Source of the DNA: an uncultured Pseudomonadales bacterium
GTDB lineage: Bacteria; Pseudomonadota; Gammaproteobacteria; Pseudomonadales; Azotimanducaceae
NCBI GenBank assembly: GCA_958296195.1
Contig: OY282455.1
Coordinates: 3,720,001-3,784,000 of the forward strand
Direction of reading: 5' to 3'
Length of the DNA stretch: 64,000 nucleotides
The position numbers and the translations under genes were made by a program. Below, one piece after another: positions 34,513 through 49,880 of the stretch (position 1 is the first letter of the stretch; every line of letters starts with the position of its first letter). The notes below the pieces were generated by a model. The model made no database searches. It was not told where the DNA came from and saw nothing but the letters and a program-made list of their open reading frames with translations.

Positions 34513-36054
34513 TCAGGCCTGTTTGCGGCCCGCGGAGCGTTCCTTCGCCGCCTCCGCCTTGGGGGTTTTGCGGGGTTCGGAGTTATCCGGCTCGGCGGTG
34601 GGGGCCATGGGGCCTGTCCAGTCCTTCGGCGGCGGGCCGACGTCGATGGGCGGTCCCAAGGGCACGGCGTCCATCAAGGCGGTCAGTTGCGCCAGCTTTT
34701 CCGGACGGCTGGCGGCCAAATCCTCGGTCTCACGGGGGTCTTCCATCAGGTTGTAGAGCTCCTGCTTGACCACTTCGCCGATCTGCTCGGCCGGCGCCGC
34801 CATCAAGTTGAAGTTCTGCGCCCGCACCAGTTTCCAGCCGTCTTGAATCAGGGCGGTGCGCAGGGTGCGCAGGGCGAGGCCCAAAACGATGGGATTGCGC
34901 CGTTTAATGGCTGCGTTGCTTTCGATGCTCGGCCAGACGTTTTGCCCCACCTTGCGTCGGTCCGCGTTGGGCGGCAAACCAGCTAGGGCACGGAATGTGG
35001 GATGCAGGTCATGCACGCTGATGAACTGCTCGCGCAGCTCTCCGGGCGGCAGGCGGCCGGGCCACCAGGCAATGCCCGGAACCCGAATGCCGCCTTCGTA
35101 GGCAGTTGCCTTGCCGCCCTTGAGCGGCGCGTTGTTGGCGCCGAACTTCGCAGCGCCGCCGTTGTCGCTCATGAACAACACCAAGGTGTTGTCGGCATCG
35201 GGCCGCTGCTTGATGGCTTGAATCACTGAGCTCAAGTTTGCATCCAAAATCGCCACCATGGCCGCATAGCGGCGACGGTGGTCGTCCTCAATATGGGAAT
35301 AGGCCGCCAAGGCGCCGTCCGGCGCTTGCAGGGGCGTGTGTGGCAAGCTGTAGGAAAGGTCCAGAAAGAACGGCTTGCCGGCCGGGTGATTCTCGAGCAA
35401 GCGGATGGCCTCTGCGGTCAGCAGGTCGGCGACGTAGCCGGCCTCATCCACCGAACTGCCGTTGCGCTGCCAATCCAGCCGAGAATGCAGGCTGTGGGTG
35501 TAATGATTGATCTCGCCGCCGAGAAAGCCGTAGAAATGAGCGAAGCCCCGGGCGTTCGGCGACTGTTCCGCAAAGAACTCGCCCAAATGCCATTTGCCCA
35601 CCTTCCAAGTGGCGTAGCCGGCCTCCCGCAGATCGTCCGCAAGAGTGGCGATGCCCAAGGGCAGGCCGGCGCTGGACCAAGGTGGCGTGGGCTCGATGAG
35701 GCCTAGGGTGAGCATGCGCTCCCCGGAGAGAATGGCCCCTCGCGTCTGGGTGCAGGCGGGATAGGCGTACAGCCGATTCAAGCGCACACCCCCCTTGGCC
35801 AGCCGGTCGATGGTTGGGGTGCGAATCTCGCTGCCGTGGTAGCCCAGATCGTTCCAGCCCAGATCGTCCGCCAGGACCAGGACCAAGTTCGGCGGATGCA
35901 CTTGTGGGGCGGATGGCCAAGTCGTCCCTGGAACGCTCGTCAGCAGCAGGGCGCAGACAAGGGCCAAGCCCTGCAAGGCGCTCAGGCGAACGCTCAACGC
36001 GTTGGTGGGGGCGGAGAGACTGGCACTTACATTTGGATAGTGACCCATTTCCAC
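34513..36054 (-). CDS. Sulfatase with atypical CTQTR active-site motif
   Basis: A sulfatase-fold protein of roughly 490-513 residues (start uncertain). After a hydrophobic leader (LQGLALVCALLLTSVPGTTW) come NLVLVLADDLGWNDLGYHGS, YPACTQTRGAILSGERMLT, GKWHLGEFFAEQSPNARGFA, SYSLPHTPLQAPDGALAAYS and VLFMSDNGGAAKFGANNAP. Overall it resembles N-acetylgalactosamine-4-sulfatase/arylsulfatase B-like enzymes. The proline of the C-x-P-x-R signature is glutamine here. The first codons of the open frame overlap the end of the aldehyde dehydrogenase gene, so the true start is probably a TTG near 35997. The basic, proline-rich C-terminal tail is copied at 30873-30934. Confidence 0.85.
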   Translation of the reverse strand: MEMGHYPNVSASLSAPTNALSVRLSALQGLALVCALLLTSVPGTTWPSAPQVHPPNLVLVLADDLGWNDLGYHGSEIRTPTIDRLAKGGVRLNRLYAYPACTQTRGAILSGERMLTLGLIEPTPPWSSAGLPLGIATLADDLREAGYATWKVGKWHLGEFFAEQSPNARGFAHFYGFLGGEINHYTHSLHSRLDWQRNGSSVDEAGYVADLLTAEAIRLLENHPAGKPFFLDLSYSLPHTPLQAPDGALAAYSHIEDDHRRRYAAMVAILDANLSSVIQAIKQRPDADNTLVLFMSDNGGAAKFGANNAPLKGGKATAYEGGIRVPGIAWWPGRLPPGELREQFISVHDLHPTFRALAGLPPNADRRKVGQNVWPSIESNAAIKRRNPIVLGLALRTLRTALIQDGWKLVRAQNFNLMAAPAEQIGEVVKQELYNLMEDPRETEDLAASRPEKLAQLTALMDAVPLGPPIDVGPPPKDWTGPMAPTAEPDNSEPRKTPKAEAAKERSAGRKQA

Positions 36055-37475
36055 TCGGTCATCGCCTCTATATCTTCTTCAGTGCCCTCCCGGCCAAAAC
36101 CGCTCTCTTTTGTACCGCCGAATGGCACATGCGGCTCGTCGTGGAGCGATGACCCGTTCACATGCACCATCCCAGACTCGACCTCCATCACGAAGCGCAT
36201 CGCATCCGAGATGTTTTGCGTGAAGATCGCTGCGCTCAGGCCAAAGGCTGAATCATTCGCCGCCGCAATTGCCTCGTCAAGGCCCGTTATCGGATAGACG
36301 GACACCACTGGCCCGAACGTCTCCTCGGCGTACACCGTCATCTCAGGCGTAACGTCGGTTAGGACGGTGGGCTCGCAACGATTGCCAACCCATTTGCCGC
36401 CGGTGACGACGGTCGCGCCCTTCCCGCGCGCATCTTCGATGTGCCGGCGCACACGCTCGCGTTGGCGCTCGCTGATGATCGGACCAATCATCGTGTTTGG
36501 ATCGCGCAAGTCGCCCATGCCCAAACTGCTTGCCGCTTTCGCAAAACCTTTGACAAACGATGCAAACACCTCTTCTTGGACGTAGATGCGACTCGCGCCC
36601 ATGCATACCTGGCCTTGGTACATGAAGATACTCTGCACCGCCCCGGCCACTGCTTTCTGCAGACAAGAATCCGCCAGCACGACCAACGGACTTTTGCCGC
36701 CCAGTTCCAAGGTCATCCGCTTACCGTGCTTTCCGCAGAGCTCGCGTATATGTTGACCGACGCGGCAGGATCCCGTGAATGTCACCATCCTCACCTGGGG
36801 GTGCGTCGTGAGTGTGTCACCAATCTCATAACCGCTTCCAGAGACGACGTTGAACACGCCCTCGGGTAATCCGGCCTCGGCATACAACTGCGCCAGTCGA
36901 TTCGACAGAATCGGTGCTTCCTCGGATGGCAGCATCACAACGGTGTTGCCCAAGGCGATGGGATTACAGCTGAGCCGAACCCCCTTTATCAGGGGCACAT
37001 TGAATGGCGTGATGGCGGCGATCACTCCAATCGGTGATCGAATGCTCATGCTGAACTTGCCCGGTACATCCGAGGGGATGGTCTTTCCAGTAACGTGCCG
37101 CGTCATGCCAGCCGCAGCGCGTAGAAAGGCTAGGCCCTTCTCCACTTCGAATGCTGCTTTCCTGATGGGCGAGCCGATCTCATCCACGAGAATGTCAACA
37201 AACTCGTTGCGGTCACGTTCCAGGAGCTCCGCTGCCTTACAGAGTATTCGCTCCCGCTCTTTGGGCACCGATGCACGAAATGACGCGAACGCCTCATGCG
37301 CGGTTTCGACCGCCCTGTTTACATCCTCGACTGAACCGGCGGCAGCTTCGCTCAATACTTTGTCGTCCAATGGATTGCGTGTTGGAAAATACTTGCCACC
37401 TTGCGGCGGCGTGTTCTTTCCATCGATCCAATGATCGACGGATTCGTAGCTTCGTGCTGCCAACGACGTACTCAT
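36027..37475 (-). CDS. Aromatic-type aldehyde dehydrogenase
   Basis: A 482-residue NAD(P)+-dependent aldehyde dehydrogenase. Motifs are GVIAAITPFNVPLIKGVRLS, VTFTGSCRVGQHIREL, MTLELGGKSPLVVLA (catalytic Glu) and MYQGQVCMGASRIYVQ (catalytic Cys), ending with FGGTKESGFGREG. The overall pattern is that of benzaldehyde/vanillin dehydrogenase-like enzymes. A 4-hydroxybenzaldehyde-oxidising role would link pchFC to pobA, but its own operon (SDR, GSTs, MFS, TonB) suggests an independent pathway. ATG at 37475 with AGAGGT upstream; 23 bases after the SDR gene. Last gene of the long lower-G+C operon; the sulfatase frame begins over its last codons. Confidence 0.87.
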   Translation of the reverse strand: MSTSLAARSYESVDHWIDGKNTPPQGGKYFPTRNPLDDKVLSEAAAGSVEDVNRAVETAHEAFASFRASVPKERERILCKAAELLERDRNEFVDILVDEIGSPIRKAAFEVEKGLAFLRAAAGMTRHVTGKTIPSDVPGKFSMSIRSPIGVIAAITPFNVPLIKGVRLSCNPIALGNTVVMLPSEEAPILSNRLAQLYAEAGLPEGVFNVVSGSGYEIGDTLTTHPQVRMVTFTGSCRVGQHIRELCGKHGKRMTLELGGKSPLVVLADSCLQKAVAGAVQSIFMYQGQVCMGASRIYVQEEVFASFVKGFAKAASSLGMGDLRDPNTMIGPIISERQRERVRRHIEDARGKGATVVTGGKWVGNRCEPTVLTDVTPEMTVYAEETFGPVVSVYPITGLDEAIAAANDSAFGLSAAIFTQNISDAMRFVMEVESGMVHVNGSSLHDEPHVPFGGTKESGFGREGTEEDIEAMTEWKWVTIQM

Positions 37476-37498: not shown

Positions 37499-38254
37499 CT
37501 ATTGATTCAAGGCGCCACCATCCACATTGATGCTTTGCCCGGTGATGAAGTCGCTGTCCTCGCTGGCCAAGAATAACATCGTGCCCAGCACGTCCTCAGG
37601 TAGCATCTCCCGCTGGATCGCCCGCACTGCTAACGTCGGTGCGCGCAAGGCACTAAGCTGCGCGTGTTCTTTGACGCCTTCGCTTTCGGTCAATCCAATT
37701 ACGATCGTATTGACGTGGATGTTATCGGCGGCAAGCTCGCGGCTAATGGCTCTTGTCTGCGCAATCACGGCACCCTTTGAGGACACATAGTGAAGAAACA
37801 TCGGCGCACCGCGAAGCACCGTGCCTGAAGAGATGTTGATGATCTTGCCGCGGCCGTTCTTCCTCATGCTGGGGACAACGGCTTTCGCCGCCTGGAATGG
37901 CCCGCGTACGTTCACACGCATCACTAAGTCCCACTCATCGTTCGAAATTTGCGAAAAAGGCTTTAGTTTCAGCGCCGCGAACACCGCCGCGTTGTTGACG
38001 AGAATCTCGATCGGACCGAATGTCGATTCCGTCTCCTCGACCATTGCCGACAGGGATTCATCTGAGGTTACATCGGTCTTCAACCCGATCGCCTTCCCGC
38101 CGGCCGATATGATTGCGGTGACCGCCTCATCAGGGTCTTGAACATCTGTTACGACGACCTGCGCACCATGTATTGCCAGCGACTCCGCGTATGCACGGCC
38201 AATCCCCTGGGCCGCCCCGGTTACAACCGCCACTTTTCCGCTCATTCGTCCCAT
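37499..38254 (-). CDS. Short-chain dehydrogenase/reductase
   Basis: A 251-residue classical [23 protein letters not shown] (cofactor), ILVNNAAVFAALKL, IINISSGTVLRGAPMFLHYV (catalytic Ser and Tyr) followed by SSKGAVIAQTRAIS (Lys), and SDFITGQSINVDGGALNQ at the C-terminus. The closest pattern I recall is that of 1-phenylethanol dehydrogenase-like enzymes, so it may oxidise a benzylic or secondary alcohol. The start has GAGGT six bases upstream. It is between a GST (10 bases upstream) and the aldehyde dehydrogenase. Substrate unknown. Confidence 0.85.
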   Translation of the reverse strand: MGRMSGKVAVVTGAAQGIGRAYAESLAIHGAQVVVTDVQDPDEAVTAIISAGGKAIGLKTDVTSDESLSAMVEETESTFGPIEILVNNAAVFAALKLKPFSQISNDEWDLVMRVNVRGPFQAAKAVVPSMRKNGRGKIINISSGTVLRGAPMFLHYVSSKGAVIAQTRAISRELAADNIHVNTIVIGLTESEGVKEHAQLSALRAPTLAVRAIQREMLPEDVLGTMLFLASEDSDFITGQSINVDGGALNQ

Positions 38255-38263: not shown

Positions 38264-39082
38264 TCAATTCATTCCAATGATTTGCTTGACGTCTGGCCAA
38301 CTCTGCGCACCGAACGTCCTCAGATCGTTCGTCAACTCTTCGGGGCACCAGTGCAGAAATGTCGGCGCGAAGGAACCCATCGCCTTAACGCGATTGAACC
38401 AAGCCTCGACATGCGGCAAACGGCCAGCCGTCCACATGCCTGACATACTCAGCATGTCCAGTCGATTGACGTAGGGTGTCAGGGCAATATCCGCCAAAGA
38501 GAACGTATCACCGGCAAGCCAGTCGTGCTGCTTGAGCGCTTCTTCCATCTTGAAGAGATAGCCGTCGTACAGACTAATCCCACCTTCGATTCCTGGCGCG
38601 TCGAAACCGCGACGTACAATCTCCTTTTTTCGCTCCTTCCACGTTGACGTGACGGACTGGTCCGGCGTGCTGCCTAGAAATTCGCGAAGCTTTTCCTCAC
38701 CCAATCGCATAACAATGTGGCGGTGACAGCAGACGAAGGTGAGCTCCCCACAGGCCGGATGAAGTTGTTCGTCCACCGCCTTTTCCCAAATCCGCATACG
38801 TGCGCGGGACAGCGGGTCGCCGGATACGAGCGAGGGTCCATTGAAGGCATCGTTGACGTACTCACAAATGACTGTGGATTCATTGATGATGTGGTCATCA
38901 TGCACAAGAGCCGGCACGACTGCCTTCGGATTAATCTTGAGATATTCCGGATCGAACTGCTCGCCTTTGAGAATATCTACATAGTGCATCTTGTCCGGTA
39001 CTACGCCCTTTTCGGCGAGTGCGAATCGCACTTTCGCCGCGCAGACAGACGAGCCATGGTGGTAGAGCTCTAACATTGCCAT
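38264..39082 (-). CDS. Glutathione S-transferase family protein (etherase-like)
   Basis: A protein of about 272 residues. The thioredoxin-like N-terminal domain reads LELYHHGSSVCAAKVRFALA, then INPKAVVPALVHDDHIINES and TVICEYVNDAF, with the Glu-Ser pair that binds the glutathione gamma-glutamyl group. A helical C-terminal domain contains HDWLAGDTFSLADIALTPYV. The ESTVICEY stretch and DP-RARMRIWEKAVDEQ resemble LigF-type beta-aryl etherases, but many GSTs share this pattern. ATG 39082 chosen by family N-terminus; a TTG 33 bases upstream is an alternative. Downstream neighbours are an SDR and an aromatic-type aldehyde dehydrogenase. Confidence 0.82.
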   Translation of the reverse strand: MAMLELYHHGSSVCAAKVRFALAEKGVVPDKMHYVDILKGEQFDPEYLKINPKAVVPALVHDDHIINESTVICEYVNDAFNGPSLVSGDPLSRARMRIWEKAVDEQLHPACGELTFVCCHRHIVMRLGEEKLREFLGSTPDQSVTSTWKERKKEIVRRGFDAPGIEGGISLYDGYLFKMEEALKQHDWLAGDTFSLADIALTPYVNRLDMLSMSGMWTAGRLPHVEAWFNRVKAMGSFAPTFLHWCPEELTNDLRTFGAQSWPDVKQIIGMN

Positions 39083-39118
39083 GCATCCGTAATCATGGAA
39101 CACCCGCCGAGCCAATGC

Positions 39119-40357
39119 TCACGCCAAGGTCCTAGAGTGAGTTGCGCCGCCGGCAGGGTATTTCCCCAGCGCAAGAAACAGCGCAATCGAAATCAAGCAT
39201 AGAGCTACCGAGATCGTTAGTATCGTGGTGTACCCTTGGAACGCTTGTGCAACTGCGCCAAAGAGGGGCGGCGCAACTCCGGCACCAACCGTGAAAAAAG
39301 CGATAATTGCGCCGAAGATCGCTGGGTAGTTGGCTGGGCCAAAGTACCTGCCAGTCAGGTATGCGAGTAGATCCAGCTCGGCACCCGCTGCGAGGCCGAT
39401 GAGAATGGCGATGAACACGCCCCAGCGAAACGTCATATCAACTCCCAGGAGGATCGATAGCCCGATCGTTAGAAGCACAAAGACGCAGGCAGCAACGCCT
39501 GGTGCCCAGAAGCGATCGACCAGAGCGCCGACGAGCAAGCGACCGACGATAATCGTCAGCCCCATGACAGCAGCAATCGTCGCAATTGAACCGCGCTCGA
39601 AGCCCTTTTCACTCATGATACGCTCAAAATTGGAAAGCAAGCCCGCAACGACAATCGCCGTCACGAAGAGTACGACGCCGAGTATCCAGAAACGAGCAGT
39701 GCGCATTGCTTGGCCGCGCGTCATGCCCCAAGCCGAGGGTTCTGGAACTGCTCTCTTCCCACCACCTTCGGCCACAATTCTGGCCCTCTCTCTGAACATC
39801 GAGATCACGATCGGCAGAGAAACCAGCAGCGCCCCAACTCCAATCCCGCGGTACGCAGCCCGCCATCCGTAATTGGATATAAGGAACTCGACAACTGGCG
39901 GGAGCAGAAATGCTCCAAGCCCGGTTCCCGCCATCGTGATTCCAATCGCCTTACCTCGGTGTTTCAAAAACCAACTGTTGAGCACACTCGTCCAAACAAT
40001 TGGCAATGACCCGGCACCAAGTATTGCCAGTAACGCAAAACTTAAATACCACAACAGTAGCGAACCGTTATTGAATGAAATGATCACATAGGTAGCCGAG
40101 TGGCCGACAAGGCCAACGACACCTACAATGCGAAGGCCGGCTCTGGCGGCAATGGAGCCGATCAATGGCCCCGTCACAAGAGCCAAGCACATCACGACGG
40201 TATAGCTCAAGAAAAACTGCGACGCGGTCCAACCGAATTCGGTGGTAACGGGGCCGACAAAAAACCCCTGCGAATAGTTCGTGAGGGTAAAAATGCCGCA
40301 CATCGTTCCAATTGTGGCCGCTAGTAGCGCCTTCCAGCCGTCTCTGAACTCGTTCAC
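39119..40357 (-). CDS. MFS transporter
   Basis: A major facilitator of about 412 residues and 12 helices, of the monocarboxylate/oxalate-formate antiporter-like group: GWKALLAATIGTMCGIFTLT, NYSQGFFVGPVTTEFGWTAS, ALVTGPLIGSIAARAGLRIV (loop 2-3 motif), WFLKHRGKAIGITMAGTGLG and VGRLLVGALVDRFWAPG. Such carriers move organic acids. The GTG at 40357, behind AGGGGA and 11 bases after the GST stop, is preferred; an ATG 42 bases upstream would overlap that gene. A G+C-rich relative of its N-terminus survives as a fragment at 59060-59182. Confidence 0.85.
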   Translation of the reverse strand: MNEFRDGWKALLAATIGTMCGIFTLTNYSQGFFVGPVTTEFGWTASQFFLSYTVVMCLALVTGPLIGSIAARAGLRIVGVVGLVGHSATYVIISFNNGSLLLWYLSFALLAILGAGSLPIVWTSVLNSWFLKHRGKAIGITMAGTGLGAFLLPPVVEFLISNYGWRAAYRGIGVGALLVSLPIVISMFRERARIVAEGGGKRAVPEPSAWGMTRGQAMRTARFWILGVVLFVTAIVVAGLLSNFERIMSEKGFERGSIATIAAVMGLTIIVGRLLVGALVDRFWAPGVAACVFVLLTIGLSILLGVDMTFRWGVFIAILIGLAAGAELDLLAYLTGRYFGPANYPAIFGAIIAFFTVGAGVAPPLFGAVAQAFQGYTTILTISVALCLISIALFLALGKYPAGGATHSRTLA

Positions 40358-40368
40358 GCGGTCATCCC

Positions 40369-41142
40369 CTAAGCCTGACTGAGCTCTCTTGGCCACCATT
40401 TCGCTATTCCACTCTGGTAGCTATTTCGCACACCTAATCGTTTGGTCCAACTCGCAACGTTTCTAAGAGCTTCAAATTCGTATCCCGCCAGTCTCTCTAA
40501 CGTAAACTGCAACGGAACCCAGGCGATGTCCGCCAATGAAAACCTGTTTCCCGCAAGCCAGTCGCGCTTTTCCAGGATAGCATCCATTTCAGAGAAACAA
40601 GCATTCAGCACTGTTTTGGCCTTACTGATTTCTTCGTCAGAAAAGCCCTCATTTGTGCTTTTGCGATGAAATTCCAGGAGATCTGGGTTCCTTTGCAGCG
40701 ACCTATACTTCTCGTCCTCTGTGTCCGAGTGCGCCATTCGCTTGCCGACACGCTTGAAGTAGATATATGGCTTTACGGCCTGCAAATGGATCGCCGTTGC
40801 GCGGCGCAGCCAGTGATACATTTCGTCCCAGTCCGTCTCGTCCGCCGGTTTAAGCGGCGGGTCGGGGAATTCGTCGTCGAGGTAATCGATGATGTCGTCC
40901 GATTCGATGATGACTTTGCCGTCATGCACTAGCGTCGGCACCAACCCGTTTGGGTTGATACCGAAATACTCCGGTGTGATGTGTTCCTTACGGAGAATAT
41001 TCAGATGATGACTCGTCCACGAAAGCTGCTTTTCTTCAAGCGTCATCCGAACACGCATCGAACAATTGGATACATGGGCGTGATAGAGATGCAATCCCTT
41101 GAACTCGAGTACTGACTCGTTTGTAGGAGTGACAATGCCCAT
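40369..41142 (-). CDS. Glutathione S-transferase family protein
   Basis: A 257-residue GST. The N-terminal thioredoxin-like domain has LHLYHAHVSNCSMRVRMTLE and INPNGLVPTLVHDGKVIIES then DDIIDYLDDEFPDPPL. The C-terminal helical domain has RDWLAGNRFSLADIAWVPLQ. The residues around SNCSMR suggest a cysteine- or serine-type active site, as in omega/beta-like or lignin-related GSTs. It lies 38 bases after a TonB receptor gene and just before the MFS carrier. Two different GSTs in one operon suggest a two-step thiol-dependent reaction, such as ether or halide displacement followed by glutathione removal; this is inference. Confidence 0.83.
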   Translation of the reverse strand: MGIVTPTNESVLEFKGLHLYHAHVSNCSMRVRMTLEEKQLSWTSHHLNILRKEHITPEYFGINPNGLVPTLVHDGKVIIESDDIIDYLDDEFPDPPLKPADETDWDEMYHWLRRATAIHLQAVKPYIYFKRVGKRMAHSDTEDEKYRSLQRNPDLLEFHRKSTNEGFSDEEISKAKTVLNACFSEMDAILEKRDWLAGNRFSLADIAWVPLQFTLERLAGYEFEALRNVASWTKRLGVRNSYQSGIAKWWPRELSQA

Positions 41143-41180: not shown

Positions 41181-43496
41181 TTACTCGAACCTAGCCGAAA
41201 TCTTCAATACTATTTCCCGTGGCGGGTTCATCGAGGCCAGCACATTGGGGCCGGATGGAATGCACCATGCGCAATAACCTTCCTCAGAAAGATTACGTCC
41301 AATCAGAGTTACCGTAACTCGATCGTTCGGCGAAATGAGCCGCAAGGCCGCGTTGCTAATAGAGTACGAATCGGTCAAAACGTTATCCTGATAGGAGATG
41401 TCGGTGTAGTGCTCGTCGGAATAAGTGTAGTCGAAGCGACCGCCAAAGTCCCAGCCGCCGAACGCATCCTCCACCAGGAAATCGGCGAATATGGTGCCCT
41501 TAAGGTCCGGCGCGAATATCAGCGGCAGTCCGGCAAGATCGCAAGTGCCGGTGACTGGATCCGGCGTCACAGGCGTGTCGTCGAAACATTCGGCCCCGGG
41601 AAACGAGCCGTAGCTTGCATCCGTGAAGGCGGCATTCGCACCCAATGTCCAGACGTCATTGACGGCCCAAGTCACATCCATCTCCACGCCTTTACTGGTT
41701 GAGTCTGCGGCGTTCGAAACAGAGAACGCGGGTACCGTGCCGGGTATCTGGGTTGCCAGCTGCAGGCCCTCGACATCCATGCTGAACGCCGCTATATTCA
41801 GCGCCAGCGCACCATTCAGCCACGTGGTTTTTGCGCCAAGCTCAATGGAGTCAACATTTTCCTCATCGTATTCGTAATCCGCAAGCGGATTTTCAATCCG
41901 GTCGCTGAAGCCGCCGGTCTTGTGGCCTTGCAAAAATGCGGCGTAGAGCATCGCGTTTTCATTCACATGCCATTGCAGCGTTGCCGAGCCTGTAAATTTG
42001 CTCTCTGAACGACTGTCGGTTACGGCAAGCGGCGGACCCCCAGGGCCGCCGGGAATGTTGAGCCGATTGTCGGTTCCGTACTCCGCGAAGTAGCGTTCGA
42101 ATTCAAAATCCTTATCCTCACTTGCGTACCGGCCACCCAATATCAGAGTCAGATCGTCCGTGAAGTACCATCGGACCTGCCCAAATGCGGCAATGGTCTT
42201 TGTCTCGATCGTCCAGGGTTCGTAGCGGTCCAGAAACCCTCCGGTCGGATCAAGGAATATTGTTACCAGGTTGATACTTGAGTTTTGAAAGCGGCTGACT
42301 TCACTGTTCTCGAAGTAAGCACCGACAATGTAATCGAATGCGTCTGCTTTGATCGACGTGTAGCGCAACTCCTGGGAGAGGTTCTCGTATTCCTCATTTC
42401 TCCGGGCGCGGAATCCGCCGGCAAGCCCCATGTCGAGCCCCACGAAGTCGTGCTTATAATCGTAGTCCTGATATGCGCTGACCGAAGTGAGAGTCCCGCC
42501 AGAGAAATCATGCTCGACCGTCAGGGTGACGTTCGAGGATTCCTGGTCACGGCTGGGGCAGAAGGAACCCGTATTAAATGCGGTATCGGCTGTGCCGTCT
42601 CCGTCGGTATCGCGATTAGCGATGATGTCCGTGCAATCGACGTCGATGATCCAATCCAGCTCCGGCGTGAAGTCCGGCGATGGGATCTGGTAAACGAATA
42701 GCGGCGGTCCACCGACATCGGCAATCTCCGCAGCATCGGGTCCTTTCGACTCGAACTCGTTGTACTCGATCTTGAGACCCACGCTTGTCCGGTCACCCGG
42801 CGCCCATGCAAGCTTCAGCCTTGCGCCGGTATCGGTTCTGTTTGGCCCGCCTGGACCTTCCAGTCGATTCTCATAAAAACCGTCAGTGTCCTTGACCCGA
42901 AAGGCAATCCTTGCAGCCAAGCTCTCACTCAGAGGTCCTGAGAGAAAGGCCTGAAGGTCCCTATTCCCACCTGTCGTACTGTAATCGCTTACCGAAACGG
43001 TGATCCCGCTCTCAAAGTTGTCGGTAGGATCAGCCGTGTTCATGATAAGTGCGCCGGCAACCGTGTTCTTTCCAAACAACGTACCCTGCGGCCCGCGTAG
43101 CACTTCCACGTTCTCGAGGTCCATGAATCCGTGCAAGTTGATTGCTGCTCGACCGATGTAAACACCATCGACAAACCGGCCAACGGACTGCTCGATTGAA
43201 TGTGTTGCACCGGACCCGAGGCCGCGCATGTAAAGGTTCGGCAGAATGGACGCGCTGTTAATCTCGAAGTTCGGGACGAATAGCGATAGATCTTCCATGT
43301 CGGAGATACCTAGGGTCTCGACCTGTTCGGCCGATACTACGCTAATCGAGACGGGCACATCCTGAAGCGATTCGGAACGTTTTTGAGCCGTGACGATAAC
43401 TTCTTCAATCTGACCGTATGCGACCGAATGATTCATCATTAAAGCACATAAAACCATCAACGGCGCATGCTTCGCTAAACAATGATTTGGGTTCAT
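41181..43496 (-). CDS. TonB-dependent outer-membrane receptor
   Basis: A 771-residue receptor: a signal peptide (LMVLCALMMNHSVAYGQ), TonB box and plug start (IEEVIVTAQKRSESLQDVPV), plug motifs NLYMRGLGSGATHSIEQSVG and VEVLRGPQGTLFGKNTVAGA, and a beta-barrel ending in the aromatic strand VLKISARFE. It is of the type that in proteobacteria imports large or poorly diffusing organic molecules. A CxxC pair (GYCAWCIPSG) near the end and a DTDGDGT calcium-like loop are unusual details. It follows the alkylsulfatase-like gene by 97 bases and precedes the GST gene, so it probably imports the substrate of this operon. Confidence 0.93.
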   Translation of the reverse strand: MNPNHCLAKHAPLMVLCALMMNHSVAYGQIEEVIVTAQKRSESLQDVPVSISVVSAEQVETLGISDMEDLSLFVPNFEINSASILPNLYMRGLGSGATHSIEQSVGRFVDGVYIGRAAINLHGFMDLENVEVLRGPQGTLFGKNTVAGALIMNTADPTDNFESGITVSVSDYSTTGGNRDLQAFLSGPLSESLAARIAFRVKDTDGFYENRLEGPGGPNRTDTGARLKLAWAPGDRTSVGLKIEYNEFESKGPDAAEIADVGGPPLFVYQIPSPDFTPELDWIIDVDCTDIIANRDTDGDGTADTAFNTGSFCPSRDQESSNVTLTVEHDFSGGTLTSVSAYQDYDYKHDFVGLDMGLAGGFRARRNEEYENLSQELRYTSIKADAFDYIVGAYFENSEVSRFQNSSINLVTIFLDPTGGFLDRYEPWTIETKTIAAFGQVRWYFTDDLTLILGGRYASEDKDFEFERYFAEYGTDNRLNIPGGPGGPPLAVTDSRSESKFTGSATLQWHVNENAMLYAAFLQGHKTGGFSDRIENPLADYEYDEENVDSIELGAKTTWLNGALALNIAAFSMDVEGLQLATQIPGTVPAFSVSNAADSTSKGVEMDVTWAVNDVWTLGANAAFTDASYGSFPGAECFDDTPVTPDPVTGTCDLAGLPLIFAPDLKGTIFADFLVEDAFGGWDFGGRFDYTYSDEHYTDISYQDNVLTDSYSISNAALRLISPNDRVTVTLIGRNLSEEGYCAWCIPSGPNVLASMNPPREIVLKISARFE

Positions 43497-43592: not shown

Positions 43593-44993
43593 CTAACGAA
43601 GGGTGGCCGAAGAACCGCCTGCCAATTTGCGAAGCTCAATTGCACTACTGAGATAATAGTTTCTCGCAGTGGCAGTGAGAATTTGGTCGGCAAGCGCGGT
43701 CAACGCTTCGGCCTTGCTTATCATTGCAGCCTTGTTGTCAGGCTCAAGCGTCAACACGTAATCGCAAAGCTGAGCTGCCCATTGGTGATCGTCTTCCTTA
43801 ATCGCTGTATCGACCCACCTAAGTAGAGCATCACTGCCACCGGCAACCCTGGCCATCCGTTCAGCCTCCGCCCTATCACTGAGCGGAAACAAATTGGTGG
43901 CATTGCCATCAAACCAACCCAAGTAGCCGCCGAAAATGGCACGGACAGCCCACTCAGGATTGCCGTAGTAGGGCTGCAGATAATCCAAGTCTTGGTATTT
44001 GTCCGGAAGAACGACGTACTCAACCAGTTGGTTCGGTGTCATTCCCTTGTTAATGCCCTCAACTGTCTTGTCGAATAAGAAGCGAATCGCCTCACTGTAA
44101 TTAGTTAGCGTTTCACCTACCGCTGCTTCACCGATGATTGGACGGGTATGGCCACCCACCACCGCTGCTGGGCGTTCCTGCAGGATACTATCGATTGCAT
44201 TCGCCCATTGCCGGACGTCCCGGTACGGAGTACCGCGTAGCGCGTACAGGTTCGGCCAGGACTTATAGAAGTTATCGCCCGAAAAGGCAACGCGCTCTTT
44301 CGGAAACCAGACGTAAAGATGGTCATACGTTTCGCCAGTCGAAGCGACCAACTCGAGCTCTATGCCCGCAATCGAGAGTTTTTCCCGCTTGCCCTCAACC
44401 AAGTGTGTAGGAGTAATCTGATGATCCCCGGCAAAAACACCGCCTTTTCGCTTAGGCCAATAGGCTTGCGCGATACCGTTATTAATGCGCTGCTCTGCCG
44501 ACAACGCGAACCCTGCCTGCCTAACGCCACGGCGCCTTTGAATCACTATTCCTGCTTGCTCCAGCGTGCGCTGTTCATGCTGAAACCCTTTTCGAGCCCA
44601 GATCTGGACGTCTGGTGTATCGACAAAAGCTGATGCGCCAAGGATATGGTCGGGGTGGCCATGGGTTAATATGATGGCCTTCACCGGCTTATCTACCAAG
44701 CGGCGAAAATCCTCTCGTATCTCCTTGCTGGTCGCTACGTCTATTCCGGTATCAATAATCACAATACCTTGCGAACCGACGATCATGCTTACGGGTGAAA
44801 CACCGTAGCCTACGGCGGTATGTACGTTATCCGATACCCTGATGATATCCCTATCGAACTCCGCAGTACGGCTTTTGAGCTGACGGGTTGCATCAGACTC
44901 GGCTGCGAAGGCGCTGCCGACAATAACCATAGCCCCAATGAGTGCTGGCCATAACCGCGAACAGATTCCAATGCCAAACTTCATGTCAGACAC
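43593..44993 (-). CDS. Alkylsulfatase-like MBL-fold hydrolase (exported)
   Basis: A 466-residue metallo-beta-lactamase-fold enzyme with a signal peptide (WPALIGAMVIVGSAFAAE). Metal-binding motif AIILTHGHPDHILGASAF, then further ligand regions in HLYVWFPKERVAFSGDNFY and AVVGGHTRPIIGE. The helical part (LFDKTVEGINKGMTPNQLVE, LPDKYQDLDYLQPYYGNPEW, AVRAIFGGYLGWFDGNATNL) is the alkylsulfatase dimerisation domain known from SdsA1-type enzymes. The C-terminal SCP2-like domain of full-size alkylsulfatases (about 650 residues) is absent. A paralogue lies at 54944-56344. It starts five bases after a TonB receptor gene. Likely a periplasmic sulfate- or other ester hydrolase. Confidence 0.85.
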   Translation of the reverse strand: MSDMKFGIGICSRLWPALIGAMVIVGSAFAAESDATRQLKSRTAEFDRDIIRVSDNVHTAVGYGVSPVSMIVGSQGIVIIDTGIDVATSKEIREDFRRLVDKPVKAIILTHGHPDHILGASAFVDTPDVQIWARKGFQHEQRTLEQAGIVIQRRRGVRQAGFALSAEQRINNGIAQAYWPKRKGGVFAGDHQITPTHLVEGKREKLSIAGIELELVASTGETYDHLYVWFPKERVAFSGDNFYKSWPNLYALRGTPYRDVRQWANAIDSILQERPAAVVGGHTRPIIGEAAVGETLTNYSEAIRFLFDKTVEGINKGMTPNQLVEYVVLPDKYQDLDYLQPYYGNPEWAVRAIFGGYLGWFDGNATNLFPLSDRAEAERMARVAGGSDALLRWVDTAIKEDDHQWAAQLCDYVLTLEPDNKAAMISKAEALTALADQILTATARNYYLSSAIELRKLAGGSSATLR

Positions 44994-44998: not shown

Positions 44999-47422
44999 CT
45001 AAAATTCAACGCTGAATGAAACACCATATGTGCGAGTGGAAGCGTTGGTGACCCTACACAATGCGTTCATGTGGATATGTGCTCGGGCGTTGGTCGCATT
45101 CCCCAATATGGCATTGCCGTCGTTAATCAACACTGCCCCGCAAAAATGTTCGTCGGTCAGGTTGCTGCCGTATATCGATAGATTGTACTGCTGTTCCCCT
45201 CCGAATCGGTAGCTTACATTCGCATTCAGCAACGTGTATGCATCAGTGCTTAGCTGATCCACAACCCGACTGTTTCCGCTAGTGGCCGTGACTTTGACCT
45301 GATCTCCGGTATGGGAAACATTGGCTGTAAGGGTAAGCAAGCTGCCATTATTTAGATAAAACTCCTGCGACGCAAGCAGATTAAAGGACACATCCGGGGA
45401 ATTGCCCAATTCGGCGCCCTCAACAAAAGCGCTATCGCCGGCCTTAGTAACTTCGGTATCAAGCAGAGAAATCCCTGCTTGTAGGAATAAGCCTTGGCCA
45501 CCGCCATACGCAATGTTTGCGTCAAACCCCTTGACCTCGGACTCCGGGGCGTTATCGAGAATCGGAATTCCCCTAGCGGTCACAAACTGCTGTAGATCTT
45601 CGTAGGTATATAAAAACGCCGCGGCATCGAGTTGAATGCGGTTATCCCAGAACGCTCCCTTATAGCCGATCTCCCAAACATCCAAGCGCTCCGGATCAAG
45701 CCGGGTTTCTTCCAAGGACGAGACCACATTGGCTATTGGAACAAGCGCATAGACGGGCCTGATGTCCAAAGCCGACCCCTTGAAGCCTCTGGAGTTGCTC
45801 ACATAAAGCATTGAGCTGTCTGTTACCTTCCAGTCCAGTTTGACGGTATAACCGACGTCTTTGTTAGCCAGCTTCTGGGCGATTTGTCGTGCAATTTCAT
45901 AGCCGTTCGCATCAAATGCGGGGGTGCCGGGATTCTGCGCAGCAACCAGCGCGGCAACCTCTTCCTTGAAATACAAATTCGTTGTGGGAGCGCCAGCAAC
46001 ACTGGGAGAGGAGGGCAGATAGCTACCTTCTATTTCTTCGTCGGACCAACGCACACCGGCGGTTAGCGTTATTGCGTCGGTGAGGTCATACTCGCCTTGG
46101 AAGTAAATACCCAGGTTGTCCCTAGTATGATCCAATTGGATATTCGGGATTTGCACACCATTTCGAAACGCGCCCCGCGCACCTCGAAGCCCGGTATAGG
46201 AATCGGCGTCTTCCTCAAGGTAGTACACCCCAGCAATCCAACGAAGGCTCTGGTCTTCGGCGGAGATTAGGCGCAACTCCTGTTGAAACGTATCTCGGTC
46301 ATCTTGCTGGTAGGACTGCAATCCGAGCGTATCGCCACCGTCATTATCATTGGCGTTTCTGAATTTCAGATTGTCCCAAGAAGTAATGGAACTAAATGTG
46401 GCCCACGGCAGGTCGTAGTCAAATTTGAGATAGGCGCCCTTGGTATCCAGATCCTCGAACCCGATGTCCTGCGCGCTTAGCTCCCAATCACCAGTGGAGG
46501 GGTCCGATGCCGGTTCACCGGTGCCTCCACCATTACGACTAAGGCAATTGGTATTGTCCTCAAAGTCGATGACGCCCATTGGGACATCGGCACATAGCCC
46601 ACCGGAGCCATCGGGTGACCGGGTTCCCAATGCCCTTATGGAGGTGCTGTTGTTATCCGACTTCAACCCATGCACATTGAAAGTCAGGCTTGCCTGTTCT
46701 GTTGGCTCCCAAAGGAGGGTCATGCGTCCGGTCGTGATGTCATCGTCGCCGTACCTTTCTCCATTGCTAATGGACTTGAAAGCGCCGTCGTCCTTAATCC
46801 TTTGCAATGCAAAGCGTGCCGCCAGCGTATCCGTCACGTCGAAGCCGACCGCCAGCTCAGCCTCAACACGATTATTGTTACCCAATTTCACGCTGGCATT
46901 GCCTTGCGTACCGGCACCAATTTCTGGCTGCCTACTGATGTAGTTGACCGCCCCACCAGTGGTATTTAGCCCAAACAGCGTGTTCTGGGGGCCTTTGAGA
47001 ATCTCAACGCGCTCCATGTCAAACAGGGCTGCTTTGGCGTGAAAACCGCTGGTCAAGGTGATGCCATCGAAATATTGCCCAACCGCAGATGCCGCGGTTA
47101 GATGCACGTCACTGGTTCCGACGCCGCGTAGAAAATAGTTTCGATTCGAACCCGCCTGAGTTCCTAACGCAAATCCCGGCGTTATATTCACCAAATCGCT
47201 AGCGTTTGTAACGCCTAGTGTTTTCATCGCGTCGCCGGTAAACGCACTCATCGCGATGGGCACATCCTGAATGGATTGCTCCCGCTTCTGCGCAGTGACG
47301 ATGACTTCCTCCAAAAGGACGGGACCCTCCAGGCTCTCTTGGGCACCGGCCGGCGGCACCAAGAAAACGCCAAGACACAGCGCCATGCCCAACTGAAGCC
47401 GACGGTTTGCGCTCATCAACAT
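44999..47422 (-). CDS. TonB-dependent outer-membrane receptor
   Basis: An 807-residue receptor with signal peptide (GMALCLGVFLVPPAGAQE), TonB box region LEEVIVTAQKREQSIQDVPI, plug motifs FLRGVGTSDVHLTAASAVGQ and VEILKGPQNTLFGLNTTGGA, a long barrel and the terminal strand TRTYGVSFSVEF. Sequence pattern is that of the large Proteobacteria/Sphingomonad-type receptor group. It is the first gene of the lower-G+C operon, followed directly by the alkylsulfatase-like enzyme; receptor plus periplasmic hydrolase suggests import of a sulfated compound. A 47-base element upstream (47599-47645) is shared with the LysR/MBL intergenic region. Confidence 0.93.
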   Translation of the reverse strand: MLMSANRRLQLGMALCLGVFLVPPAGAQESLEGPVLLEEVIVTAQKREQSIQDVPIAMSAFTGDAMKTLGVTNASDLVNITPGFALGTQAGSNRNYFLRGVGTSDVHLTAASAVGQYFDGITLTSGFHAKAALFDMERVEILKGPQNTLFGLNTTGGAVNYISRQPEIGAGTQGNASVKLGNNNRVEAELAVGFDVTDTLAARFALQRIKDDGAFKSISNGERYGDDDITTGRMTLLWEPTEQASLTFNVHGLKSDNNSTSIRALGTRSPDGSGGLCADVPMGVIDFEDNTNCLSRNGGGTGEPASDPSTGDWELSAQDIGFEDLDTKGAYLKFDYDLPWATFSSITSWDNLKFRNANDNDGGDTLGLQSYQQDDRDTFQQELRLISAEDQSLRWIAGVYYLEEDADSYTGLRGARGAFRNGVQIPNIQLDHTRDNLGIYFQGEYDLTDAITLTAGVRWSDEEIEGSYLPSSPSVAGAPTTNLYFKEEVAALVAAQNPGTPAFDANGYEIARQIAQKLANKDVGYTVKLDWKVTDSSMLYVSNSRGFKGSALDIRPVYALVPIANVVSSLEETRLDPERLDVWEIGYKGAFWDNRIQLDAAAFLYTYEDLQQFVTARGIPILDNAPESEVKGFDANIAYGGGQGLFLQAGISLLDTEVTKAGDSAFVEGAELGNSPDVSFNLLASQEFYLNNGSLLTLTANVSHTGDQVKVTATSGNSRVVDQLSTDAYTLLNANVSYRFGGEQQYNLSIYGSNLTDEHFCGAVLINDGNAILGNATNARAHIHMNALCRVTNASTRTYGVSFSVEF

Positions 47423-47598: not shown

Positions 47599-47645
47599 GA
47601 CAATTAGGGGTTTGGGCGTCTATTTGTTCTCGAAACGCGGTCAAT
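47599..47645. promoter_or_regulatory. Shared upstream element, copy 1 (possible LysR site)
   Basis: 47 bases that align without gaps to 48841-48887; the best-kept core is TCTATTTGTTC and GGTCAAT. It lies about 180 bases upstream of the TonB receptor start in the 295-base gap that separates it from the RNase Z-like gene. The rest of this gap shows no gene. Confidence 0.55.
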
Positions 47646-47717
47646 CGGCCTTGCGGAGGGCGACAGGTTTGCCTGTGGCGATGCATTCCGCGAGAGGAAC
47701 TTCGGGGTGGAAGCGCT

Positions 47718-48746
47718 CTACCCGGCGACCGATTCAGCCGGGTGCGATGGTCGGCGGACCTCGATTTCCTCCCCGATATCGATAACCATTAGATCTTCGC
47801 CGACCTCAAGCCGGCCGTTCCATGTTTCCCGAGTCTGCTCGATGAGTTCAGGAATCGCGGACGGATTATTGTCGAGGTGAGTAAAGACGCCCAGGCGCGT
47901 ACCCGACTCATTGAATACGCGCCCGACATCAGGAGCAAGCGTGTGTAAAGCTACGATATCGTCTGCCATGTCTTTCTGGTAGTTTGCCCGCACGAAGTTT
48001 TCGAGCGCAGGGGACACCACCTCGTGGAGAATGACGTCCGCCCCTTTGCTGTGGCGAATGAGATTTGTGGAAAATGCAGTGTCACCGGAAATCACCACGC
48101 TGTGACCACCGTAGCCGACTCGATAACCGAACGCCGGCTTTACGACGTGGTGATCCACACGAATGGCTGTTACTTTGACGTCATTGAAGTCAAATTCGGC
48201 ACCGTCGGTGACCGTGGTCACTGAATATTCGAGTTGAGCTCGCGACAACGTCGATACTTGGCGATCAACGCGAAAGATGACGTCCTGGTCATAGGCAAGC
48301 CGAATGTGTCGCATAAGGTCTTCAGTTTTCTGTGGACCGTAGATCTTCAACCCCGCCGGACGCAGCATCACCCAGCCGTTGAGGTAGAGATCCGGCATGC
48401 CAATCGTGTGATCTGAATGCAAGTGCGTAATGAATACGTGCTGAGTGCCTCGCAGGTATTGCGGCCCCAAGTTCCATAGCCGATGCGCACAGCCACGCCC
48501 ACAGTCAAAGAGCAATTTGACGTCGTTTGCCTCGACGAGAATGCTTGGGCCGAACTGACGGGGATTGGGTACGGGCACGCCTGTACCCAGCAGCGTAACG
48601 CGGATAGCGAAATCCGGCTCGGTTACGCCGGACACGTCAGCGTATGGAGAATTGCTGCCCGCAATGCCGACGGCAACCAAGGCCACCGCAAACCACCGTC
48701 GCCAGTATGCCAACAGTGTGACTCGTCTTATGGGCATCGTCGCCAC
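47718..48746 (-). CDS. RNase Z/AtsA-like MBL-fold hydrolase (exported)
   Basis: A 342-residue MBL-fold protein with an N-terminal signal segment (FAVALVAVGIAGSNSPYAD). Motifs are VTLLGTGVPVPNPRQFGPSI, LLFDCGRGCAHRLWNLG, QHVFITHLHSDHTIGMPDLY (HxHxDH) and GHSVVISGDTAFSTNLIRHS, with the later LGVFTHLDNNPS. The RNase Z-like fold with a signal peptide is that of the Pseudoalteromonas AtsA arylsulfatase group and of exported lactonase/phosphodiesterase-like enzymes. A sulfatase role fits the neighbourhood but is not proven. It is divergent from a LysR gene 150 bases away and upstream of the TonB/MBL/GST operon on the same strand. Confidence 0.8.
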   Translation of the reverse strand: MATMPIRRVTLLAYWRRWFAVALVAVGIAGSNSPYADVSGVTEPDFAIRVTLLGTGVPVPNPRQFGPSILVEANDVKLLFDCGRGCAHRLWNLGPQYLRGTQHVFITHLHSDHTIGMPDLYLNGWVMLRPAGLKIYGPQKTEDLMRHIRLAYDQDVIFRVDRQVSTLSRAQLEYSVTTVTDGAEFDFNDVKVTAIRVDHHVVKPAFGYRVGYGGHSVVISGDTAFSTNLIRHSKGADVILHEVVSPALENFVRANYQKDMADDIVALHTLAPDVGRVFNESGTRLGVFTHLDNNPSAIPELIEQTRETWNGRLEVGEDLMVIDIGEEIEVRRPSHPAESVAG

Positions 48747-48840
48747 ATCTTGAATTGCTATCCGCTCCCGTTGCCGTCATTCGGTGATGGGTGTAGTTTT
48801 CTCCTCCCTATATTGAACTATAATTGCGGTCGAAACGAGC

Positions 48841-48887
48841 GATAATGAGGCTTTTCGGTATCTATTTGTTCGCAAAACAAGGTCAAT
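48841..48887. promoter_or_regulatory. Shared upstream element, copy 2 (possible LysR site)
   Basis: Counterpart of 47599-47645, ending ten bases before the LysR start. It contains the inverted repeat TTGTT-CGCAA-AACAA, which fits the T-N11-A LysR box, and lies in the divergent region between the LysR and RNase Z-like genes, where LysR regulators normally bind. Confidence 0.6.
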
Positions 48888-48896
48888 GGTGGTGGC

Positions 48897-49880
48897 ATGA
48901 ATGAGCTAAACAGTCTGCGAGCGTTCGTCAAGGTGGTTGAAGTGGGCAGCTTTGCCGAGGCGGCGAGGCAGATGGGGACATCCAAGTCCGTGGTGACGAA
49001 GCGGGTCAATCAGCTCGAGGAGCACCTGGAGCTGGAGCTGTTGCAGCGATCGACCCGACGCCTCAGCATCACGGACACTGGCAGCGCACTCTATGAGCGT
49101 TGCGTTCGAATCCTGGCGGAGCTCGACGAAGCCAAATCGGAGGTGAGTTCTGTCGAGTGGGGCTTAAGCGGAACCTTTCGAGTCAGTTGTATCTCGTCGT
49201 TCACGGCCGCCTATCTCGCTCGCGACCTGTGTGAATTCCAGATGGAGCACCCGAATCTGCAAATCGAGCTGCAACAACAAGATCGGATTTGCGATCCGGT
49301 GCAGGAGGGATTGGACGTTTGTCTGCAGCCCACAGCACCGCCAAGCAAGGTTGTTGAGGCAGTTGACCTGCTTCCGCTGCGGCGGATGGTCGTGGCCACT
49401 CCTAGCTACCTTTCGCGTCACGGCGAACCAAGACATCCAGAAGCTCTTGCTGCGCACCGATTTGCACACAACAGTCATGTCCACCCAACCTACGCTATCG
49501 ATTTTCATGACGGTCGAGACACGATTCGAGCACCGTTCACGCCGATCATGTTGACTAACACGGTGTGGCAACTGCGGGCGGCCGTTCTGTGGGGTGATTG
49601 TATGGCCATGATGCCCGCATTCTTCATCGAGAAGGAGCTAGTAGCTGGCGAGTTGGTGCCAGTGCTGCCGAGCCTAAGGATAAAGAGCGTGAACCTGTCT
49701 GCTTACTTCCGTAAGGCCCCGTTCGTGCCGATGAAGATTCGGATCTTCTTGAACTTCCTCCGCCAACGCTACGGCGATTTCCCACCGTGGGAGCAACGAC
49801 TCATTGAAGCCAAACCCGAGCTGAGCGGCGTGCTCGGTCCACGCAAGACCAAAGAGGACATCGTCGGTGAAAGGCGTTAA
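48897..49880 (+). CDS. LysR family transcriptional regulator
   Basis: A 327-residue LysR protein. HTH in the first 60 residues (LRAFVKVVEVGSFAEAARQM, GTSKSVVTKRVNQLEEHLEL, LQRSTRRLSITDTG). The effector domain starts at GTFRVSCISSFTAAYLARDL and includes QRDGLDVCLQ-like pocket sequence (here EGLDVCLQPTAPPSKVVEAV). ATG at 48897. It is transcribed away from the RNase Z-like gene and the long catabolic operon and probably controls them through the shared elements. The last residues (GPRKTKEDIVGERR) end the lower-G+C block. Confidence 0.92.
   Translation: MNELNSLRAFVKVVEVGSFAEAARQMGTSKSVVTKRVNQLEEHLELELLQRSTRRLSITDTGSALYERCVRILAELDEAKSEVSSVEWGLSGTFRVSCISSFTAAYLARDLCEFQMEHPNLQIELQQQDRICDPVQEGLDVCLQPTAPPSKVVEAVDLLPLRRMVVATPSYLSRHGEPRHPEALAAHRFAHNSHVHPTYAIDFHDGRDTIRAPFTPIMLTNTVWQLRAAVLWGDCMAMMPAFFIEKELVAGELVPVLPSLRIKSVNLSAYFRKAPFVPMKIRIFLNFLRQRYGDFPPWEQRLIEAKPELSGVLGPRKTKEDIVGERR

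Follow-up and report, generated by a model that had tools for sequence, protein, structure and literature searches.

A conserved cassette of two cysteine-type glutathione transferases, dehydrogenases and sulfatases, possibly the upper half of a protocatechuate 4,5-cleavage pathway for sulfated phenols

The genome of an uncultured member of the Azotimanducaceae (Pseudomonadales), a single contig of 4.31 Mb (OY282455.1, assembly GCA_958296195.1), contains a ten-gene island in which two glutathione transferases (GSTs) are encoded together with a short-chain dehydrogenase/reductase (SDR), an aldehyde dehydrogenase (ALDH) and metallo-beta-lactamase (MBL) hydrolases. It was analysed within a window of 64 kb (positions 3,720,001 to 3,784,000 of the contig), whose numbering is used throughout. 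The island (36027..49880) consists of ALDH, SDR, GST2, a major facilitator superfamily (MFS) transporter, GST1, the TonB-dependent receptor TBDR2, the hydrolase MBLa, a second receptor TBDR1 and the hydrolase MBLz, all on the minus strand, followed by a divergent LysR-type regulator on the plus strand. Pfam and NCBIfam annotation of the open reading frames (ORFs) places all ten genes in the order and at the coordinates given by a first-pass annotation of the sequence. The lower G+C content described there is likewise borne out: measured in 2-kb steps it is 52-57% over 36-50 kb, against 60-65% at 28-36 kb and 59-65% past 50 kb, and the G+C content of third codon positions ranges from 0.56 to 0.67 in the ten genes and from 0.75 to 0.87 in most flanking genes. 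Further dips in G+C content are seen at 3-11 kb and 24-27 kb. Intergenic gaps from ALDH through TBDR1 amount to -31 to +96 bp, TBDR1 and MBLz are 295 bp apart, and MBLz is separated from the divergent regulator by 150 bp. No sigma-70-like promoter site was found in a scan of 47400-49100.

A search for the same gene order in other genomes found the cassette again. The named scan for GST1 yielded 104 confirmed stretches, of which 80 loci were kept; counts out of 80 refer to these. ORF calling retrieved GST1 from 72 of the loci and GST2 from 42, whereas tblastn at 50% identity detected GST2 in 46; counts of residues are based on these ORFs together with the window row. GST1 orthologues are 46-90% identical across the 80 alpha- and gammaproteobacterial loci, and a few that bear the label Bacteroidota possibly stem from mis-binned contigs. 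The gammaproteobacterial carriers include Woeseia, Halieaceae, NOR5-3, Paraglaciecola, Granulosicoccus and Bugula-associated Chromatiales, the alphaproteobacterial ones Shimia, Ruegeria, Phaeobacter, Planktotalea, HTCC2083 and a metagenome-assembled genome from Spongia; judging from the names, we take these groups to be marine. GST2 is found near GST1 in 46 loci, SDR in 52 and ALDH in 47, and all three lie within about 10 kb in 44. The typical alphaproteobacterial order is GntR, DctP, GST1, DctQ, DctM, ALDH, GST2, SDR and OsmC, adjoined by a sulfatase and MBLa, and the typical gammaproteobacterial order is LysR, TBDR2, GST1, GST2, SDR and ALDH, with a variable position of MFS. Tripartite ATP-independent periplasmic (TRAP) transporter genes occur in 44 loci and TonB receptors in 21 (18 under stricter criteria), both in none and neither in 15 (E 1e-10), so that 65 of the 80 loci encode one of the two uptake systems. 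Constant enzymes combined with an exchanged uptake system are the pattern expected of a catabolic unit.

Closer to the window, the distribution of GST1 is rare and patchy. Three of 200 family genomes (G000, G076 and G118) contain it at an identity of at least 61%, and only one of 232 class genomes, the window's own, matches at 1e-60. In G118, which belongs to another genus of the family, LysR, MFS, a TonB-dependent receptor, GST1, GST2, SDR and ALDH occur together at 56-72% identity. The congener G076 carries the same block at 96-97% DNA identity, which suggests that the island was probably already present before the two congeneric species diverged, and lacks MFS between GST1 and GST2: a spacer of about 250 bp without a match (L044:13221-13498) replaces window positions 39119-40399. 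The MFS gene sits elsewhere in the cluster in other loci, and some relatives lack both MBL genes and the first receptor. Across the 80 loci, 31 protein families occur in at least six, and 29 of them were identified by Pfam or by a match to a window gene; the remaining two (c22 and c30) gave no Pfam match. One shared member is an OsmC-like protein of about 393 amino acids in 27 loci, between L075 and L136 (for example, L095:16255-17436).

The window also encodes a protocatechuate 4,5-cleavage (lig) operon at 18.8-24.3 kb, with the gene for the arylsulfatase Sulf3 just upstream (Table 1). LigA, the 4-oxalomesaconate (OMA) tautomerase and LigK exceed curated equivalog cut-offs, and the LigC- and LigJ-like proteins are assigned by Pfam only. 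The window's LigA is the sole one over the cut-off in the genome. Homologues of the window lig proteins, at 41-74% identity, are encoded in the flanks of 16 of the 80 GST1 loci, and protein clusters likewise give 16 lig-bearing loci, with one locus differing; among the cluster-defined loci LigI is found in one and PIG-L/GalB-type hydratases in others. Within the family, LigA is present in 18 of 200 genomes at 1e-25 (15 over the cut-off), yet in all three genomes with a GST1 orthologue, a co-occurrence with a chance of 6e-4 if the two were independent. Orthologues of Sulf3 at 70-73% identity lie inside the GST clusters of L061, L063, L064 and L073. Given these associations of LigA, the lig genes and Sulf3, comparison points to the island and the 18.8-26.5 kb stretch as one system. 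The gene order of the unit proposed in the first-pass annotation is upheld, but the system extends beyond it, and the lig ring-cleavage genes support the aromatic substrate assumed there.

Table 1. Genes of the island, the lig operon and adjoining sulfatase genes, in window coordinates
Feature	Position	Strand	Assignment and distribution
LigC-like oxidoreductase	18783..19724	-	PF19858 + PF01408; no NCBIfam over cut-off; homologue at 59-68% in 5/80 loci
LigK, 4-carboxy-4-hydroxy-2-oxoadipate aldolase	19721..20530	-	TIGR02798 361 bits, cut-off 304.5; homologue in 8/80 loci
OMA tautomerase, LigU/GalD type	20508..21572	-	NF033377 487.7 bits, cut-off 440; homologue in 8/80 loci
Amidohydrolase, LigJ-like	21787..22830	-	PF04909; no NCBIfam match; homologue at 59-71% in 5/80 loci
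LigB, dioxygenase beta subunit	22983..23933	-	PF02900; NF009903 485 bits, subfamily cut-off 317; homologue in 10/80 loci
LigA, protocatechuate 4,5-dioxygenase alpha subunit	23815..24330	-	TIGR02792 176.5 bits, cut-off 108.6; homologue in 10/80 loci
Sulf3, type I arylsulfatase	24696..26504	-	PF00884; CSPTR site; 52% G+C
Sulf1, PF00884 protein adjoining ALDH	34513..36054	-	CTQTR instead of the usual CxPxR
ALDH	36027..37475	-	PF00171 524 bits; at least 50% identity in 47/80 GST1 loci; proposed aromatic aldehyde to acid
SDR	37499..38254	-	PF13561; in 52/80 loci; proposed benzylic alcohol to aldehyde
GST2, Cys-type	38264..39115	-	GST_N/GST_C; S23-V24-C25
MFS transporter	39119..40399	-	PF07690
GST1, Cys-type	40369..41142	-	Pfam GST match; S25-N26-C27; orthologues in 80 loci
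TBDR2, TonB-dependent receptor, proposed uptake	41181..43496	-	PF00593 + PF07715; family in 16/80 loci
MBLa, exported MBL hydrolase with alkylsulfatase dimerisation domain	43593..44993	-	PF14863 140 bits + PF00753
TBDR1, TonB-dependent receptor	44999..47422	-	PF00593 + PF07715; family in 6/80 loci
MBLz, RNase-Z-like MBL hydrolase, candidate type III arylsulfatase	47718..48746	-	PF12706
LysR-type regulator, divergent	48897..49880	+	PF00126 + PF03466; family in 16/80 loci
Sulf2 (CSPAR site), TBDR3, small protein, MBLb	49958..56446	-	adjoins LysR; MBLb 46% to MBLa

Hydrolases of sulfatase type accompany the GST pair. Over the 80 loci, MBLa-type hydrolases occur in 40, PF00884-type in 37 and MBLz-type in 12, and loci with GST2 have a sulfatase-type hydrolase in 39 of 46 cases, those without GST2 in 9 of 34. 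The first-pass proposal that sulfate-ester hydrolysis is coupled to GST, SDR and ALDH in one catabolic system is supported by this conservation. MBLa displays the HxHxDH motif and the dimerisation domain that mark type III alkylsulfatases, and matches the sec-alkylsulfatases 2yhe (167 bits) and SdsA1 (158 bits). It lacks their C-terminal third domain: the match ends at residue 518 of 658 in SdsA1 and 456 of 466 in MBLa, and no third Pfam domain is seen. We rejected MBLa as the defining feature of the system because some loci keep GST1, GST2, SDR and ALDH without an alkylsulfatase-like MBL. The best solved relative of MBLz is PNGM-1 (73 bits), with the arylsulfatase 8gyg at 49 bits; the MBL298 protein of the alphaproteobacterial clusters matches 8gyg at 194 bits. 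SulfA, from the alphaproteobacterial clusters, gives 629 bits with 4upi, an entry of the sulfatase family; this match was not counted toward aryl specificity. Sulf3 carries the CxPxR site of type I sulfatases and matches the arylsulfatase 1hdh over residues 77-600 (493 bits). Sulf1 does not belong to the conserved core, with a close orthologue (96%) in L059 only, and may be inactive or unusual given its active-site sequence. The block next to the regulator that contains Sulf2 and MBLb is possibly part of the same system, and MBLb-like genes occur in L060, L064 and L073 at 51-53% identity.

Among solved structures, LigF is nearest to both GSTs in sequence and fold searches. The structural models have mean pLDDT values of 93 for GST1 and 80 for GST2, the latter weaker in its N-terminal part, and the structure alignments comprised 35 of the 80 GST1 loci, L046 and the window for GST1, and 31 loci and the window for GST2. 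At the column of LigF Asn13 and BaeA Asn14 both window GSTs have a cysteine, which is found in 73 of 73 GST1 rows and 43 of 43 GST2 rows. Excerpts of PMC6369299 describe an Asn beside the glutathione thiol in active LigF homologues and BaeA, an approximately 20-fold lower kcat on replacement of BaeA Asn14 by Ala, and an Ala at this site in BaeB. A substitution of Asn by Cys is reported, in part of PMC3205185, to make a GST relative, DrcA of Dictyostelium, a reductive dechlorinase in which the Cys attacks the glutathione conjugate, and a similar mechanism is proposed there for PcpC. BbdI of Aminobacter MSH1 is described as a glutathione-dependent thiolytic dehalogenase (PMC8460812, in part); its repeats with gorA led us to equate it with DCS14_RS00105. 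GST2 scores 147 bits with BbdI (32.8% identity), 105-113 bits with three LigF proteins and 109 bits with a BaeA homologue, and GST1 scores 110, 77-87 and 85 bits with BbdI, LigF and BaeA, respectively. Both combine the GST fold with a cysteine at the glutathione site, as dehalogenase-type GSTs do, yet this combination is not specific to dehalogenases.

A tree of 37 GST rows, with nine locus rows each of GST1 and GST2, resolves GST1 (99/99), GST2 (100/99) and the etherases LigF, BaeA and BaeB (96/96) as separate groups; its BaeA, BaeB and LigF of Novosphingobium RL4 were assigned from sequence and overlap. GST1 and GST2 therefore each form a clade of their own and do not fall into an unrelated housekeeping class. 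The NCBIfam beta-etherase model NF042997 (cut-off 440) gives 25 bits for GST1 and no listed match for GST2; a paralogue located at 216 kb of the same genome scores 40 bits. A GST2-like gene (35%) stands there beside an SDR gene (L052 9140-10704), and the pair is perhaps a paralogous pathway. Thirteen gammaproteobacterial-type loci were checked for the spacing of the two GST genes, which lie within 76 bp of each other in 11 and share a one-base overlap in five.

The top solved match of SDR is an entry named 3-oxoacyl-ACP reductase (215 bits); (S)-1-phenylethanol dehydrogenase (170 bits) and pyridoxal 4-dehydrogenase (150 bits) are also among its relatives of solved structure. The best NCBIfam matches of MFS, to L-lactate and conjugated bile salt transporters, are both under their cut-offs. 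The RdhA-type profile PF13486 had no match in the genome, but the control matched nowhere either, so that absence is not shown. None of the 42 loci in which a GST2 ORF was called showed a Rieske motif.

Alongside the observed gene content, its conservation, the family membership of LigA, the LigU-type tautomerase and LigK, the GST clades with their cysteine, and the association with sulfatase and lig genes, we consider it possible, at slightly less than an even chance, that the island encodes the upper half of a route feeding the window's protocatechuate 4,5-cleavage operon, with a sulfated phenol as substrate and a reductive GST step. The catalytic steps, their order, the halogen and the substrate, all of which we infer from sequence, would be as follows. 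A sulfated, ring-substituted phenol of the benzyl-alcohol type would enter through the TonB receptors, or through TRAP transporters in other carriers. Arylsulfatases (Sulf3 and perhaps MBLz) would strip the aryl sulfates and the alkylsulfatase-like MBLa the benzylic ones, and SDR and ALDH would oxidise the CH2OH group to COOH. GST1 and GST2 would attack the ring with glutathione, the active-site cysteine resolving the glutathionyl-aryl conjugate, so that a ring substituent would be replaced by hydrogen; this reductive removal would most likely be a debromination, at two positions by two enzymes. The product, protocatechuate, would be opened by LigAB and processed by the LigC-like, LigJ-like, LigU-type and LigK enzymes.

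The enzyme set (aryl- and alkyl-type sulfatases, SDR, ALDH, two cysteine GSTs and no O-demethylase among the 29 families) and the protocatechuate product together suggest a 3,4-dihydroxybenzyl alcohol sulfated on the ring and side chain and bearing one or two ring substituents that can be removed. We favour a phenolic that is sulfated and probably halogenated, with roughly even odds. Of the substrates suggested in the first-pass annotation, the halogenated marine phenolic fares better than the aryl ether. Red-algal sulfates of bromobenzyl alcohols, such as lanosol-4,7-disulfate, are our guess at substrates that fit each step; within the proposed pathway a lanosol-type substrate is a tentative choice, clearly short of an even chance. 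According to excerpts of PMC9322897, lanosol-4,7-disulfate is a 2,3-dibromo-dihydroxybenzyl alcohol with sulfate on a ring oxygen and the benzylic oxygen, and is among the major metabolites in an extract of the red alga Vertebrata lanosa. By structural reasoning, each bromine of lanosol is ortho or para to a hydroxyl and could therefore be expelled via a keto tautomer, the route proposed for DrcA and PcpC; the difference between the two bromine positions would explain the presence of two GSTs.

Several observations weigh against the proposed pathway. The best sequence and fold match of both GSTs is LigF, and neither groups with PcpC or BbdI with support, although forks are open, branches are long and the PcpC sequence is provisional. 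Several GSTs of unknown role are as near to GST1 as BbdI is (110 bits), or nearer. All six plasmid GST relatives aligned also carry the S-x-C motif, and for one of them, encoded next to a fumarylacetoacetate hydrolase, no link to halogens was apparent. The motif may thus be an ancestral trait that does not signal dehalogenation; the cysteine is compatible with such a role without proving it. Its constancy in GST1 is partly a matter of recruitment, as 54 of the 72 non-window ORFs fit only the cysteine-containing recruiting pattern and 18 are independent; the GST2 count is free of this bias because GST2 was found by neighbourhood. Thirty-four of the 80 loci have no nearby GST2, and since 16 of these comprise at least 19 kb of sequence, GST1 does occur without GST2. 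No lig homologue is seen within the available flank of 64 loci, and in G118 LigA lies on a contig other than that of GST1. The window yielded no LigI: the candidate at 14081-15154 matches fuconolactonase at 228 bits (cut-off 400) and is without homologues in the 80 loci. The families shared by at least six loci include no glutathione reductase, single-locus genes not having been scanned; a glutathione synthetase is present in the genome.

The same sulfated-phenol pathway might operate on a halogen-free substrate, the cysteine GSTs cleaving an ether or thioether or isomerising an intermediate before protocatechuate. Zeta-class isomerases are among the solved relatives of the GSTs, and the cysteine is also found in relatives of unknown role. 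We regard this variant as unlikely, as BbdI, the functionally described relative closest to GST2, acts as a thiolytic dehalogenase, and no GST isomerase is known to be required in the protocatechuate 4,5 route.

The logic of lignin beta-aryl-ether cleavage invoked in the first-pass annotation, and initially followed from the LigF matches, is not sustained by the active site and the tree. Catabolism of lignin dimers by LigD/LigEF/LigG or BaeAB logic, with GST1 and GST2 as a heterodimer, would agree with LigF as the best solved relative, with SDR and ALDH in the cluster, and with GST genes that overlap or adjoin in gammaproteobacterial-type loci in the manner of BaeA and BaeB, which are adjacent and overlapping (PMC6369299, in part). 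Both GSTs, however, lie outside the LigF/BaeAB clade and have Cys at the Asn site, though BaeB itself has Ala; a heterodimer is rejected as a general rule because the two genes stand apart in the alphaproteobacterial order. No O-demethylase or LigF/BaeAB-type etherase was found among the 29 identified shared families, LigM-type enzymes not having been sought by model, and the sulfatases would be left unexplained. We hold beta-aryl-ether catabolism to be improbable. The epoxide GST pathways for isoprene and styrene were set aside, the island having no monooxygenase gene.

Enzymes of the GST, SDR and ALDH families are common in detoxification, and sulfatases could supply sulfur; the island might therefore protect the cell from algal or sponge phenolics, of which only the sulfate would be used. 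Uptake systems in 65 of the 80 loci and lig genes in 16 argue for carbon use, and leave detoxification a small probability. A chance assembly of unrelated genes in a low-G+C import would suit the patchy distribution in class and family but is very improbable, as the same genes recur in alpha- and gammaproteobacteria in changed order.

Extended to all carriers, the proposed pathway would amount to a cobamide-free aerobic mineralisation of sulfated algal bromophenols through sulfatases, benzylic oxidation, two position-specific glutathione debrominases and 4,5-cleavage, horizontally spread among Roseobacter-type bacteria, Halieaceae, Woeseia and Paraglaciecola with swappable TRAP or TonB uptake. 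We place this extended form on the unlikely side. If true, it would supply a step so far missing from the cycling of bromine and organosulfates in the sea. Red algae produce bromophenols and bromophenol sulfates (PMC9322897, in part), and a cobamide enzyme debrominates in Roseobacter-type marine bacteria (PMC13101508, in part). A glutathione-based route in many marine bacteria would add a second debromination chemistry beside the cobamide one, would suggest the use of aromatic sulfates by some sulfatase-rich marine genomes, and would yield debrominases open to assay. The enzyme families are known and their combination is apparently new; among the literature matches listed, covering mostly non-subscription literature, neither this cluster nor the catabolism of lanosol was the subject of any paper. 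The cassette is present in cultured strains, with Shimia abyssi DSM 100673 and Planktotalea frisia SH6-1 among the carriers of the full set and Paraglaciecola strains carrying part of it, and is hence open to growth, transcript and enzyme tests.

Other parts of the window have features of their own. Beside the regulator, 49958-58785 encodes a sulfatase, a TonB receptor, a second MBL and a cytochrome P450. A flavoprotein gene (FAD_binding_4/FAD-oxidase_C) followed by a cytochrome c gene at 31750-33901 is conserved in G076, in what we take to be the layout of 4-alkylphenol or eugenol hydroxylases. A second low-G+C stretch (3836-11248, 51-54%) lies between direct repeats of 300 nt with 97% identity (1353-1652 and 11240-11539), encodes RidA, a D-serine dehydratase-like protein, Amidohydro_3, DUF2961, an SSF symporter and GFO/IDH, and looks like a separate insertion.

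Among known systems, the bbd cluster of Aminobacter sp. MSH1 (plasmid pBAM2, for 2,6-dichlorobenzoate) likewise places GSTs in an aromatic catabolic cluster with TRAP genes. Of the proteins compared that have a reported function, its BbdI is nearest to GST2, with which it shares S-x-C; GST2 itself forms a separate, well-supported clade. The 18.7 kb examined of that cluster contain no sulfatase, SDR, ALDH or LigAB, and have a ring-hydroxylating dioxygenase and a glutathione reductase. DrcA of Dictyostelium, compared by description only, and PcpC of Sphingobium, 23-29% identical to the two GSTs by a provisional sequence and not their sister, share the cysteine near the glutathione site; the Ure2p-like kin of DrcA carry Asn, and a mechanism of conjugation followed by thiolysis is proposed (PMC3205185, in part). 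LigF/BaeAB of sphingomonads provide the nearest solved relative, an adjacent GST pair as in gammaproteobacterial-type loci and an SDR nearby; the cassette differs in having Cys for Asn, in its position outside their clade, in the absence of an identified O-demethylase, and in its sulfatases and TRAP or TonB uptake. With the type III sec-alkylsulfatases 2yhe and SdsA1, MBLa shares the MBL fold, the motif and the dimerisation domain, but at only 466 amino acids it is without their C-terminal part. LigA, LigK and the OMA tautomerase are shared with the protocatechuate 4,5-cleavage pathway at equivalog level and LigB at a subfamily cut-off, and the upper part of the window's pathway is, we presume, unlike the vanillate and syringate branches. 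The cobamide dehalogenases Ros_A3X954 and BhbA have in common with the proposed pathway debromination in Roseobacter-type bacteria (PMC13101508, in part), and achieve it with an enzyme unrelated to GSTs.

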